Shown here piece by piece: positions 15,109-19,200 of a DNA stretch of 35,091 nucleotides (positions within the stretch are counted from its first letter, which is position 1; the number at the start of each line of letters is the position of its first letter). The stretch is from Clostridia bacterium (lineage in GTDB: Bacteria; Bacillota; Clostridia; Christensenellales; Aristaeellaceae): assembly GCA_030535375.1 (NCBI GenBank), contig JAUNJB010000011.1:1-35091 (forward strand), given 5' to 3'. The position numbers and the translations under genes are program-made. The notes below the pieces were generated by a model. That model saw only the letters and a program-made list of their open reading frames with translations. It did not search any database and was not told where the DNA came from.

Positions 15109-15137
15109 TTGACATTCTCTCCTCACCATGCTATAAT
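15109..15137 (+). promoter_or_regulatory. Consensus sigma-A promoter of tRNA-Val
   Basis: TTGACA (15109-15114), 17-bp spacer, TATAAT (15132-15137). Perfect consensus boxes 22 bases before the tRNA. Confidence 0.88.
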
Positions 15138-15158
15138 ATATTCTGTTCTCAGCGATAT

Positions 15159-15234
15159 GGTCTGTTGGCTCAGTTGGTAGAGCACATCGTTCACATCGAT
15201 GGGGTCACTGGTTCGAGTCCAGTACAGACCACCA
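15159..15234 (+). tRNA. tRNA-Val (anticodon CAC)
   Basis: 76 nt including an encoded CCA. Acceptor stem GGTCTGT/ACAGACC, D arm GCTC-AGTTGGTA-GAGC, anticodon stem CATCG/CGATG with loop TTCACAT so that positions 34-36 read CAC, variable loop GGGTC, T arm ACTGG-TTCGAGT-CCAGT, discriminator A. All arms pair without mismatch. It decodes GUG, in keeping with a GC-rich genome. Confidence 0.95.
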
Positions 15235-15589: not shown

Positions 15590-15804
15590 CCATCTCATCC
15601 CAATAAAACGACGCCGGCACGATCCGGGGCGGACGCCAAACGGAGCATTCTGCGCCGGCGAAACGGCATCAACTGAATCCGACGATCACGGAGTATCAGG
15701 CGAAAGCGCAGCGGTATATCAGCGTGTCCGGGCGTGAATCGGGCGGGAACAAGCCCTCGCACGATAATCCGCCGCATGGATTTTTCACTTTTTTCATTTT
15801 TTGC

Positions 15805-15833
15805 TTGACACAAAGCTCCTTCGCATATATACT
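15805..15833 (+). promoter_or_regulatory. Sigma-A promoter of the structured RNA
   Basis: TTGACA (15805-15810), 17-bp spacer, TATACT (15828-15833). Predicted start at about 15840. No protein start is close, which points to a long untranslated transcript. Confidence 0.82.
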
Positions 15834-15839
15834 ATCTGC

Positions 15840-16249
15840 GTTGTCGATTAGGATGTGGCTTAAAGTCATACCGGATAAAGACATGACCAGCTCCATGCGG
15901 AGCTTGAGGCCAAACGGACAGCCGGGTCAAATGCCGATGTCGGGTATAAACCGACAGGCAACTTTCGTTGCCTTATTGATTGAGTTAAAAGCTCAGGTTT
16001 CATTAGTTGGTTACTTCATAACCATTGCACGTGCATGTGCGCATCAACTTGTGAACTGGTCAATAAGAGTAGTAAAAGTAAGTCTTTACTGTATAGACTC
16101 TGACAGCCTATCCAATCGTCGTATGACGCCCTTTTTAGGGAGCAGCCGATTTGGGCCGGATGTGCGGAACACATCTCTTCTCATCCAAATCGGATCGCGT
16201 AAAGAGAGCAGCGACGGGTGATGCGCCTTGTGCATCGCCCGTCTTTTTT
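15840..16249 (+). ncRNA. Unassigned approximately 410-nt structured RNA or leader
   Basis: Bounded by a consensus promoter and an intrinsic terminator, with no credible reading frame. A long-range stem closes the main domain: CGATT (15845-15849) with AATCG (16114-16118), GGAT (15851-15854) with ATCC (16110-16113), GGC (15857-15859) with GCC (16106-16108), AGTC (15864-15867) with GACT (16096-16099). Inside are TGACC/GGTCA (15884-15888/15925-15929) around AGCTCC-ATGC-GGAGCT (15889-15904); TGTCGG/CCGACA (15938-15956) abutting GGCAAC-TTTC-GTTGCC (15957-15972); TTATTGA/TCAATAA (15973-15979/16060-16066) around TGGTTA/TAACCA (16008-16024); and AGTAAA/TTTACT (16071-16090). A second domain pairs CCGATTTGG with CCAAATCGG (16146-16154/16185-16193) around GATGTG/CACATC. 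It does not look like tmRNA, RNase P or a T-box. Only 68 bases separate its terminator from the M28 peptidase start, so it may be that operon's regulatory leader. A raiA-type or other large Firmicute RNA is possible but unproven. Confidence 0.65.
16213..16249 (+). terminator. Intrinsic terminator of the structured RNA
   Basis: GACGGGTGATGC (16213-16224) pairs with GCATCGCCCGTC (16232-16243) with one T-G wobble, 7-base loop, followed by TTTTTT. Confidence 0.88.
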
Positions 16250-16317
16250 ATCCGGTCCTTTGTCCTTTCAGACGACATTTTCCCCGGAGGGAAACATAAG
16301 AAACGGAGGATGAATCC

Positions 16318-18375
16318 ATGAAAAAAGCTCTGGCAGTCTGTCTCGCGGCGCTGCTGGCGTCGCTGTGCACCGTCGCCACGGCACAGACCACTTCTCCCCT
16401 GCTCCTTATTGAGCCAAGCGTTGATTTTGCCATGCAGGTCACACAGACCATCGCAGATATGGGCGACAATCCCGATGTGGGCAATCGCTCTTCCGGTTCC
16501 GAAGCCGAGCGGCAGGCGGCCGCCTTCATCCAGCAGACGATGGAGGAAATCGGCCTGAGCAATGTGACGGCGGATGCCTTCACGTCGGATAACTGGACGT
16601 TCAACCGCGGCCGCGTCTACTACACGGATGAGACCGGCGCACAGCAATTCCTGCCGCTGGGCGGATTTGCCACCAACCTGACCACGGATATGCAGGAGGT
16701 CAAGGTCGTCTACGCGGGCCGCGGCACGGAGGCCGACTATGACGGCCTGGATGTGCAGGGAAAGGTTGTGCTCATCGATATCAACCAGGCCGAGGACTAG
16801 TGGATTGAGATCCCAACCTATGAAGCCTATACGCACGGCGCGCTGTGCGTGCTGGCCTGCAACAACGCGGGCTACGCCACCTATGACCGCGACACCATCG
16901 GCTCACAGGATATCTGCGGTCCCGCATATGCGCCGGCCTTTTCCCTGAGCCAAAACAGCGCGGACATTCTCAAGGCGCTTATCGCCAAGGGCAATGGAGA
17001 AGCGGAGATTGTGCTGGATGTGGAAAGCATCGTCACGCTGGACGGCTCCAGCCAGAACATCTGGGGCGAAATCCCCGGCCAAACGGACGAGGTCATCTAC
17101 TTCTTCGCCCACTATGACGGCTATTACCATTCGTACTTCGACGATGCAAGCGGCATCGGTTCCATGCTGGCCATCGCCAAGGCATTCGCCGAGAGCGGCT
17201 ATGTGCCCGATAAGACCATCCGCTTCGTAGCCCACGGTTCCGAGGAATGGGGCGATTCCGATACGGAGTACGACTGGGCAATCGGCGCCTTCAAGCAGAT
17301 TACCGAGGTGCACCCCGAGTGGGCCGAGAAAGCATTTGCCATTCTCAACATCGACGGCATGTACCCGGTGAAGGGCCACACGGCATTCTCAATCGCCGCA
17401 TCCTATGAGCTTCAGCATTTTGCAGAAGCGATCGGCGTTCCGCTTTACGAGGGCAGCGCTTATGCGCTTGAAGTCACCGCGCCCGCCACATGCTGGACGG
17501 AGGATTTCAGCTACGGCATCGCGGGCGTACCCGCGATCGTGGCTTCGCACGCCACACCCGAGGAGGTGTATCACGCCACGGCTTATCACTCCTCCATGGA
17601 CAACGTCGTTCTCGGCGTCGATGAAGCCGCCTGGCAGATGACCCTTGACCTCTTTGTCCGCTATACCGAGGAATTGGACCGCCTGGCCTGCCGCCCGATG
17701 GTCTTCTCCTCCCGCTTTGCCGAAATGGCGGACAGCTACACCGGCGATGCCAACCTCGGATTTGACCAGGCCATCGCCGCCGCTGCCGCGCTGGATGCCC
17801 GCGTCGCAGCGCTCAATGCCGATTACGCCGCCGCGCTGGACACCGGTTCCGACACCGCGACCTCTCTCCGCGAGGAGGGCATCGCGCTTAACGACGTGAT
17901 GTTCTCCATCTACCGCACCATCATGCAGGCGACCACCGCCTTTGACTGGGAGGACAACGTCGTATTCCCCTTCGAGGTCACATTCCAGAACATCGAAGCC
18001 CTCCGGCAGAGCATCGCCTGCCTTGAATCCGGCGATGCCGCCACGGCCCTTGACGAGTGGCTGTACAGCGTCGACTACAACTGGTATGCTTATGATTTCA
18101 GCAAAGCCACCTATGATTACATGCTCGACAAGATGTATGTGAAGGCCGAAGGCACCTGGGGCGAGGGCATGATCCGCTATCCGGGCGAAAACCTGTGGGA
18201 GGTCATTCACAGCCTGGCGGACAAAGCCTCCGAAGAAGGAGCCGATTTCACCGAGGAAATCGCCTCGCTCAACGAAAGCCTCTCCCGCCAGAACGATTAT
18301 GCGGCGGATCTTGACAGCCGTCTGACTCAGGATCTCCATGCCATCACCGCGATGCTCACGGACGCGTCAAACTGA
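16318..18375 (+). pseudogene. Secreted M28-family zinc peptidase, interrupted by one amber codon
   Basis: The frame from ATG 16318 (GGAGG in front) to TGA 18375 would give 685 aa but has a TAG at 16798-16800 (codon 161). The text around it, INQAED-stop-WIEIPTYEAY, is continuous in the same frame and keeps full coding character on both sides, so a single-base change, TAC or TGG type, is enough. N-terminal signal peptide KKALAVCLAALLASLCTVATA. Zinc and catalytic residues of M28 aminopeptidases are present in the second part: HYD near 265, DDASG near 275, EEWG near 310, NIDG near 345 and the final YHSSMDN. A re-initiation ATG exists at 16849 but would lack the signal peptide. First gene of a pair with the C26 hydrolase; no promoter is visible between it and the upstream structured RNA. 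Confidence 0.8.
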
Positions 18376-18402: not shown

Positions 18403-19200
18403 ATGAAAAAGCTCTTCGCACTGCTTCTGTCCCTGATGATTCTGACCGCCGCGTCCGGCATGGCCGAGGCCTTGGCCGAAGTGCAGGTTGGCATTTCCTG
18501 GGTTGCCGACTTTGAAGACGGCGTGCCCGACGAGGATACCCAGGCATACATCGACGCCGTGACAAAGGCCGGAGGAATCCCCGTCTATCTTCCCCAAGTG
18601 ACCGATGAGGAGAGCGCAAACGCGGCCCTGGCCCTGGTGGACTGCCTGATTCTGACCGGAGGAGAGGATCTGAACCCGTCGTTTTATGGCGAAGAACCGG
18701 ACGAAATGCTGGAAGACGTCAACGATGAGCGCGATCTCTCCGACTGGTATCTCGCCAGGGCCGCTGTCGACAATAAATTCCCGCTGCTGGCCACCTGCCG
18801 CGGCATGCAGCTGATCGATGTCCTGTTCGGTGGAACACTCTATCAGGATTTGCCCACCCAGTATGAAAACGCCGTCGAGCATCGCTCTCAGGATCTGATC
18901 GACTTCGCCTATCACCAGCTCACCATCACAGACGCCGATTCACTCGTTGCGCAGGCCATGGGCGGCGCCGGCACCTACGAGGTCAACTCCTGGCATCATC
19001 AGGGCGTCAAGACCGTGGGCGAAGGGCTTACCGTCACCGCGCTCGCCGAGGACGGCATGATCGAGGCGCTGGAGCTGGAAGACCCGGATTTCTTCATGTT
19101 GGCCGTTCAGTTCCACCCCGAATGGCATGTGGACGACGGCTCTGACGAGTTCCTGTCGTTCTTCACCATGCTGATGGATGCCGCCGCGGCTGGGAACTGA
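18403..19200 (+). CDS. Secreted class I glutamine-amidotransferase-like hydrolase (peptidase C26)
   Basis: 265 aa with a signal peptide (KKLFALLLSLMILTAASGMA). The rest matches gamma-glutamyl-gamma-aminobutyrate hydrolase-type (PuuD-like) C26 enzymes, which cleave gamma-glutamyl amide bonds: TGGEDLNPSFYGE (about 85-97), nucleophile Cys132 in ATCRGMQ, His238 and Glu240 in QFHPEW, and the substrate-side NSWHHQ at 195-200. Known PuuD proteins are cytoplasmic, so export is unusual. GGGAGGAA precedes ATG 18403, 27 bases after the peptidase gene, so both are co-transcribed and probably act together on extracellular peptides with gamma-glutamyl bonds. Its last 164 bases are repeated exactly at 22587-22750. 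Confidence 0.88.
   Translation: MKKLFALLLSLMILTAASGMAEALAEVQVGISWVADFEDGVPDEDTQAYIDAVTKAGGIPVYLPQVTDEESANAALALVDCLILTGGEDLNPSFYGEEPDEMLEDVNDERDLSDWYLARAAVDNKFPLLATCRGMQLIDVLFGGTLYQDLPTQYENAVEHRSQDLIDFAYHQLTITDADSLVAQAMGGAGTYEVNSWHHQGVKTVGEGLTVTALAEDGMIEALELEDPDFFMLAVQFHPEWHVDDGSDEFLSFFTMLMDAAAAGN

Follow-up and report, generated by a model that had tools for sequence, protein, structure and literature searches.

Between positions 15805 and 16249, the window analysed here, a stretch of 35,091 nucleotides from a Clostridia bacterium, carries a promoter and a terminator with a large structured RNA between them; the features of this RNA and of the genes behind it all lie on the plus strand. Comparison with homologous loci gives good support to the existence of a cis-regulatory RNA class that extends far beyond its present Rfam entry, and for which a polyamine riboswitch appears to be the best explanation. 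We consider it probable that the RNA in the window is the leader of an operon and belongs to a large class of transcriptional OFF riboswitches, characterised by helices P1 to P7, that most likely sense a polyamine, with spermidine as first choice. The broader proposal is that such riboswitches, with their own fold and a wide distribution in the Bacillota, detect spermidine or a related polyamine directly and control the synthesis and import of polyamines as well as, in one lineage, hydrolases that are secreted; here the balance leans less firmly towards acceptance.

The promoter is of the sigma-70 type (15805..15833), with TTGACA at 15805-15810, a 17-nt spacer and TATACT at 15828-15833, matching 11 of the 12 consensus bases. 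The terminator is intrinsic (16213..16249), with a stem of 14 pairs (16213-16243) followed by TTTTTT, and its 5' arm reads ACGGGUGAUGCGC (16214-16226). Both elements had been proposed in a preliminary description of this DNA, and both stand. Promoter-like sites with at least 10 of the 12 bases were found within 115 nt before the conserved domain in 67 of 83 homologous leaders, compared to 4 of 83 shuffled ones. The 412-nt stretch from 15838 to 16249 has a folding energy of -152.5 kcal/mol, where 100 dinucleotide-shuffled versions give -118.2 kcal/mol (sd 5.4; z -6.3), in line with the earlier impression that the density of complementarity exceeds chance, and the helices listed at the time are indeed present in the sequence. 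A long open reading frame (15724-16221) was rejected as a real gene and is not credible, because the frame crosses covarying helices. An identity as tRNA or tmRNA was also discarded, as ARAGORN reported only a tRNA-Val gene at 15159-15234. This tRNA-Val(CAC) gene is preceded by a perfect 12/12 promoter (TTGACA-17-TATAAT; promoter and gene span 15109-15234), and the leader promoter follows about 570 bases downstream of this region.

The RNA had been described as unassigned, which no longer applies, since 54 nt of it (15884..15937) match RF02440, SpF59_sRNA '(ldcC RNA)', with 68.7 bits over model positions 1-54 and the same core letters. This score lies above the 37.2-bit gathering score, and it is the sole match in the interval of the RNA at gathering score in Rfam 15. 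An Rfam hit to an ordinary known class, which the preliminary description named as an argument against its proposal, was obtained in a formal sense only, RF02440 being a 54-nt model typed as sRNA, whereas the class described here covers about 230 nt, to which P1, the terminator and the antiterminator are added. Between 15600 and 16400, cmscan to E <= 5 otherwise returned three chance-level families and no raiA, SAM, T-box, RNase P, 6S or SRP RNA. The suggestion of a raiA-type RNA did not survive. RF03072 (threshold 101.3 bits) has no match at E <= 5 in this interval, and the sole raiA/ModT match of the host genome is located elsewhere (G000:C228:5616-5825, locus L002; 186.5 bits), so the RNA in the window is not raiA. 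What the two have in common is that both are large, conserved and structured Firmicute RNAs; ModT is described as acting in trans (PMC11706538).

RF02440 matches were found in 8 of 60 relatives, 28 of 300 family genomes and 18 of 398 phylum genomes, and scanning named genomes for the sequence pattern yielded at least 118 loci. Among the matches listed are Paenibacillus, Bacillus, Neobacillus, Lactococcus, Faecalibacterium, Blautia, Acidaminococcus, Phascolarctobacterium and many MAGs; the genera, as named in the record titles, we take to belong to the Bacilli, Clostridia and Negativicutes. Two pattern scans of viral contigs for a phage origin gave 0 matches. A weaker copy (62.1 bits) is located before speD in L078, a MAG contig titled uncultured Spirochaetes bacterium, and may reflect either horizontal transfer or a binning error. 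Conservation extends well past the Rfam model and continues for about 130 nt more, up to GCUAUAUAGACUCU. Since the at least 118 pattern loci were picked by the exact core, and most rows of the first alignment (A1, 76 sequences) additionally by the 3' motif, the invariance of these letters is partly a matter of selection; invariant columns in A1 also occur beyond the letters used for selecting sequences. A covariance model built from the 76 sequences, named R1, covers about 230 nt. It matches the window at 15873..16103 with 193.1 bits (E 2.9e-55), the window being itself one of the 76 sequences, and this is the single match both in the window and in the host genome. R1 found 25 of 398 phylum genomes, against 18 for RF02440, and 43 of 396 order genomes.

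The proposed structure is supported by both alignments. In A1, 90.3% of the cells pair versus 84.4% after shuffling, both-sided changes occur in 31 of 59 pairs versus 19.1, and 290 cells change on both sides versus an expected 100.9, each value not being reached in any of 500 shuffles; slid controls gave 32-46% of cells paired. In the second alignment (A2, 101 matches), which was fitted by the model and leans towards structure, 53 of 59 pairs and 553 cells change on both sides (144.2 when shuffled). A conserved aptamer with covariation, as expected of a riboswitch, is therefore indicated by the 31 of 59 pairs in A1.

Helices P2, P2a, P2c, P3 to P7, P6a, P6b and P7a were defined from A1. P2 pairs UGACC (15884..15888) with GGUCA (15925-15929), the consensus being NGACC/GGUCN, and its outermost pair is UA in 32, GC in 28 and CG in 7 of the 76 sequences. 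Inside P2 are the hairpin P2a (15889-15894/15899-15904), with both-sided changes in 6 of 6 pairs, and the GGC/GCC helix P2c (15908-15910/15921-15923). A CGG/CCG pairing within the RF02440 core was left out of the model because it is broken in loci L006 and L026. The two back-to-back hairpins noted in the preliminary description turned out to differ in kind: UGUCGG-GUAUAAA-CCGACA (15938..15956) is an insert that is present in some relatives of the family and missing from the general consensus of A1 and A2, and GGCAAC/GUUGCC (15957..15972) is the conserved hairpin P3, with both-sided changes in 6 of 6 pairs in A1. In P4, the 5' strand UUAUUGAU (15973..15980) pairs with GUCAAUAA (16059-16066); 93-97% of the cells are paired, but both-sided changes are confined to 1 of 8 pairs (A1). 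Following the 5' strand of P4 is the hairpin P5 (15981-15984/15992-15995), with such changes in 4 of 4 pairs. P6 (15998..16006 with 16048-16056; consensus UUUUAUAAG/CUUGUGAAA) encloses P6a (16009-16013/16019-16023) and P6b, and has 95.0% of cells paired and both-sided changes in 4 of 9 pairs (A1). The P6b pairs fit poorly (helix 11, 47.0% of cells paired in A1; helix 10, 70.9% in A2). The 3' element (16067..16100) consists of P7, GAGU/ACUC (16067-16070/16097-16100), and P7a, AGUAA/UUACU (16071-16075/16086-16090); both are nearly invariant and hence hardly tested, with no both-sided change in A1. Covariation among homologues, by which the preliminary description proposed to judge its helices, is thus found in most of them, but is absent from P7 and P7a and scarce in P4. 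The 9-bp hairpin (16146..16193; 16146-16154/16185-16193) that had been taken for a second domain does exist, but as a linker hairpin outside the conserved core, and judged by eye it has no counterpart in locus L008.

The long-range closing stem reported earlier corresponds to P1, in which CGAUUAGGAU (15845..15854) pairs with AUCCAAUCG (16110..16118). Over 83 loci, the complementarity between the leader and the stretch behind the aptamer is -7.36 kcal/mol for a locus's own partners versus -5.62 kcal/mol when permuted within the gene family (z -7.8), the strongest signal among 33 combinations tried; part of it is background, because a control stretch upstream of the promoter, expected to be silent, reaches values down to z -4.5 in this test. 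Matched complementarity over the whole leader was -20.9 versus -18.1 when permuted, with 0 of 1000 permutations as low. A local hairpin, P0 (15851-15859 with 15865-15872), overlaps the 5' strand of P1, so that the two helices may alternate.

The genes that follow the RNA form a coherent group. The core was found by pattern in 161 of 168 locus files, 10 of which end too soon for a gene call, and in 143 of the 151 loci with enough sequence the first codirectional downstream match is a polyamine gene: an Orn/Lys/Arg decarboxylase in 46, SpeD in 43, PotA in 29 and a carboxynorspermidine-synthase-like gene in 25. The remaining 8 loci are all from the family of the window. Many loci are near copies of each other, and after removal of redundancy 80 of 84 precede a polyamine gene. 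Loci found later with R1, regardless of genes, precede polyamine genes in 29 of 29 cases (7 of 7 in the phylum sample, missed by RF02440, and 22 of 22 in the order); 4 of the 22 order loci are identical to earlier named records, leaving 25 of 25 new loci in agreement. One representative per gene group was named by NCBIfam or Pfam, and these matched SAM decarboxylase TIGR03331 (400 bits), OKR_DC_1 (233 bits), NF043000 for the carboxynorspermidine-synthase-like protein (418 bits, below the 800-bit cut-off) and NF043075 for PotA (567 bits, above the cut-off). A terminator-like hairpin with a T-run was present before the gene in 129 of 143 loci versus 31 of 143 when shuffled, by a loose criterion under which some of the 129 sites are weak. 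By its position, the RNA is a 5' leader of the following gene, and such a place before functionally coherent genes is what a riboswitch should have; the window's own gene encodes an M28 peptidase. Two loci have a different arrangement. In L091 (5837-6199, minus strand), two tandem copies of the RNA (91.2 and 52.4 bits) precede a PotA-like gene, possibly as a tandem riboswitch, and in L093 a P-II nitrogen regulator gene is located between the RNA and a PotA-like gene, possibly linking polyamine and nitrogen control.

When the terminator 5' arm was compared with the leader in 90 loci, the mean duplex energy showed one sharp minimum of -12.5 kcal/mol, 20 nt before GUCAAUAAGAG, and outside offsets -32 to -16 it never passed -7.1 kcal/mol. 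The site of this minimum is the P6b 3' arm plus the P6 3' strand. Matching each leader with its own terminator gave -13.47 kcal/mol versus -10.65 kcal/mol (sd 0.25) when permuted, with 0 of 2000 permutations as low (86 loci). Permutation within gene families, using 59 non-redundant loci, gave z -6.2, with -4.1, -3.8 and -2.2 at neighbouring offsets, |z| < 2 at every tested offset outside -28 to -10, and no second peak. By gene family, the complementarity is clear in the SpeD and decarboxylase groups; for the 14 PotA loci the observed value is surpassed by the strongest permutation, and in the carboxynorspermidine group (9 loci) the matched complementarity is not significantly above permutation. 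In the window, the switching strand GCGCAUCAACUUGU (16039..16052) can pair either within P6b and P6 or, as antiterminator, with ACGGGUGAUGCGC of the terminator (16214-16226), the latter with 13 pairs and one bulge at -16.9 kcal/mol (-18.9 kcal/mol in the matched-locus comparison). The RNA is not best taken as a free-standing transcript, since its terminator appears to end an attenuated leader and the 5' arm has its antiterminator partner inside the RNA; the wider expectation of the preliminary description, a Firmicute RNA of large size and rich structure that has a promoter and a terminator to itself, was borne out. In minimum free energy (MFE) folds of transcripts cut at the terminator 5' arm, the antiterminator was present in only 11 of 59 loci, and window folds cut at 16226, 16230 and 16235 contained neither the antiterminator nor P6; the MFE of the full leader contained the terminator in 57 of 59 loci. 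A platform with mutually exclusive structures is thus suggested by the matched complementarity (z -6.2), although plain MFE folding fails to produce it in 48 of the 59 loci, so that the switching mechanism rests on comparative evidence.

These observations can be combined in the following model. Transcription would start near 15840. When the domain is bound to its ligand, P6 would hold 16039-16052 so that the terminator at 16213-16243 can form, releasing a transcript of approximately 410 nt that ends at about 16249. Without ligand, 16039-16052 would pair with 16214-16226 and the polymerase would read into the genes. As P6 and the antiterminator share a strand and are mutually exclusive, a stabilised aptamer is expected to mean termination. 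An aptamer strand that serves as the antiterminator partner is also known from other transcriptional OFF riboswitches, which have the same kind of platform. At most loci examined, the regulated genes make or import polyamines, and the OFF sense fits a feedback loop in which a polyamine represses the genes for polyamine synthesis and uptake. Spermidine is the common denominator of the decarboxylases, SpeD, the carboxynorspermidine route and PotABCD; putrescine, agmatine, cadaverine, SAM and decarboxylated SAM are possible ligands as well.

In the window, the RNA is followed by a gene for an M28 peptidase (Shine-Dalgarno GGAGG at 16305-16309), of which the first part (16318..16800) has no Pfam match alone and the remainder (16849..18375) matches Peptidase_M28 (PF04389, 1.7e-16). 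The frame is interrupted in this assembly by an in-frame TAG (16798-16800), due to a sequencing error, a pseudogene or a recent mutation; relatives L178 and L181 have intact 678-aa versions behind the same RNA. The next gene (18403..19200), likely the second of the operon, encodes a C26 gamma-glutamyl-hydrolase-like protein (PF07722, 5.2e-61) with a signal-peptide-like N-terminus, judged by eye. It resembles PuuD (gamma-glutamyl-GABA hydrolase), although its match to NF008471 (5.6e-32) has 111 bits and is below the 266-bit cut-off. The C26 frame begins 27 nt downstream of the M28 frame, so the substrates of its product may include polyamine conjugates. Of the 28 family genomes with the RNA, 9 have a decarboxylase downstream, 3 SpeD and 13 a hydrolase, and 3 are beyond assignment. 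The hydrolases comprise 6 M28 peptidases, 6 papain-like C39/C70 proteins (3 assigned by Pfam and 3 by likeness of the N-terminus) and 1 amidohydrolase, with starts that by eye look like signal peptides. The papain-like proteins form a family of about 250 aa encoded directly behind the RNA in L008, L159, L160, L162, L163 and L167 (longer stretches of these loci are L169, L174-L177 and L179). Where a strong terminator was found, the hydrolase-linked loci have kept the switch, with duplex energies of -18.9 kcal/mol in the window, -16.3 in L159, -12.0 in L156 and -11.7 in L154. In the host genome, which is 92.7% complete, there was no SpeD match and no SpeE match; it has one divergent OKR decarboxylase gene, which is without the genome's single copy of the RNA, and a PotA-like gene (489 bits, below the 550-bit cut-off). 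A reasonable reading of this gene content is that the host may import spermidine rather than make it, and may tie the hydrolases to polyamine supply. In this lineage, the same switch would stand before secreted-looking hydrolases and probably tune scavenging to the polyamine supply.

The gene content of the family also bears on the alternative that the RNA before these hydrolases has changed its ligand and senses something besides a polyamine. With 13 of the 25 assignable family copies preceding M28, papain-like C39/C70 or amidohydrolase genes in this family, and a host without SpeD or SpeE match, this deserves attention, and among 11 hydrolase-linked sequences in A2, a gap at the beginning of P6a is present in 9, and a G in the alignment column of 15912 in 8. 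On the other hand, the copy in the window retains P6a, P6b and the core, locus L007, which is located before a decarboxylase gene, has the insert hairpin too and GA at the same loop, and the absence of SpeD and SpeE from a 92.7% complete genome is no proof. The column comparison in A2 showed no position that cleanly separates hydrolase-linked from other copies, and we regard a change of ligand as rather unlikely, yet as the most serious of the alternatives. Slightly less probable is that polyamine genes are attenuated in cis by a leader that does not bind a metabolite directly but is bound by a sensor protein, alone or together with a polyamine. Protein-dependent leaders occur in Firmicutes, and such an attenuator would show an identical gene association, terminator and antiterminator. 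However, most protein-binding leaders need less conserved RNA than the approximately 230 nt retained here across Bacilli, Clostridia and Negativicutes.

Two further explanations have little probability. RF02440 is typed 'Gene; sRNA' and is a putative sRNA in pneumococcal surveys, so the RNA might act in trans and adjoin polyamine genes by chance, and a terminated leader could have an additional role in trans; yet 143 of 151 loci and 25 of 25 new ones have the RNA before a polyamine gene and on its strand, and the terminator arms track the aptamer strand locus by locus, both of which are marks of cis action. Least probable of all, indeed very hard to maintain, is leader-peptide attenuation, in which the core would encode a peptide and ribosomes would stall in response to polyamines. 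By eye, an ATG-started frame through the core reads RPYGQPGQ in some loci (L011, L017), but none of the three frames stands out in the core (open in 82, 83 and 81 of 83 loci), only 18, 26 and 24 of the 83 have an ATG-started frame running across it, the distance between GACC and the core ranges from 25 to 42 nt with every phase represented, and the sequence variation follows base pairing. Frame analysis of the same 83 loci found no conserved upstream ORF in the leaders. A polyamine-sensing OFF riboswitch remains the reading that we prefer.

The literature search, which covered few subscription papers, found one polyamine riboswitch class only, the SAM-I variant, and nowhere a treatment of RF02440/SpF59 as polyamine regulator or riboswitch; the 2019 discovery paper PMC6429828 contained none of the queried terms. 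The SAM-I-variant spermidine riboswitch is described as having a four-stem SAM-I fold and 13 representatives, and as comprising off switches that terminate transcription ahead of polyamine genes, ldcC among them (PMC10853860). The RNA described here differs from it in its P1 to P7 helix set, of which P2 to P6 are the helices seen to covary in A1, and there is no SAM match at E <= 5 between 15600 and 16400. Its aptamer fold, with a putative ligand, corresponds to no other Rfam 15 family at gathering score and to none meaningful at E <= 5. The gene association may already have been noticed by others, as the Rfam label '(ldcC RNA)' hints. In the pneumococcus, the neighbouring gene SP0916 presumably encodes a lysine decarboxylase. 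F59 was mapped there to 869510-869591, between SP0915 and SP0916, directly upstream of and codirectional with SP0916 (PMC3395615). In a 2025 survey, srn235/F59/Spd_sr49 spans 869478-869804 (327 nt) and was matched in 385 genomes with synteny, and two other candidates, not srn235/F59, are named as cis-regulators (PMC12323649); a length of 327 nt fits a terminated leader. The virulence table of a 2015 review has F59 under 'Lung' (PMC4387999).

If the proposal is correct, the class, so far catalogued as a short streptococcal sRNA, would be a frequent equivalent of the SAM-I-variant spermidine riboswitch, which is rare, and a catalogued pneumococcal 'sRNA' would be recast as an attenuated mRNA leader. 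This bears on the question how widely bacteria sense polyamines by riboswitch. The class is defined well enough for synthesis and probing, and the predicted antiterminator pairing is precise and can be broken. The hydrolase-linked branch offers a natural test of regulon expansion or ligand drift in a riboswitch, and, if the proposal holds, the secreted hydrolases in the lineage of the window may release polyamines or their precursors.
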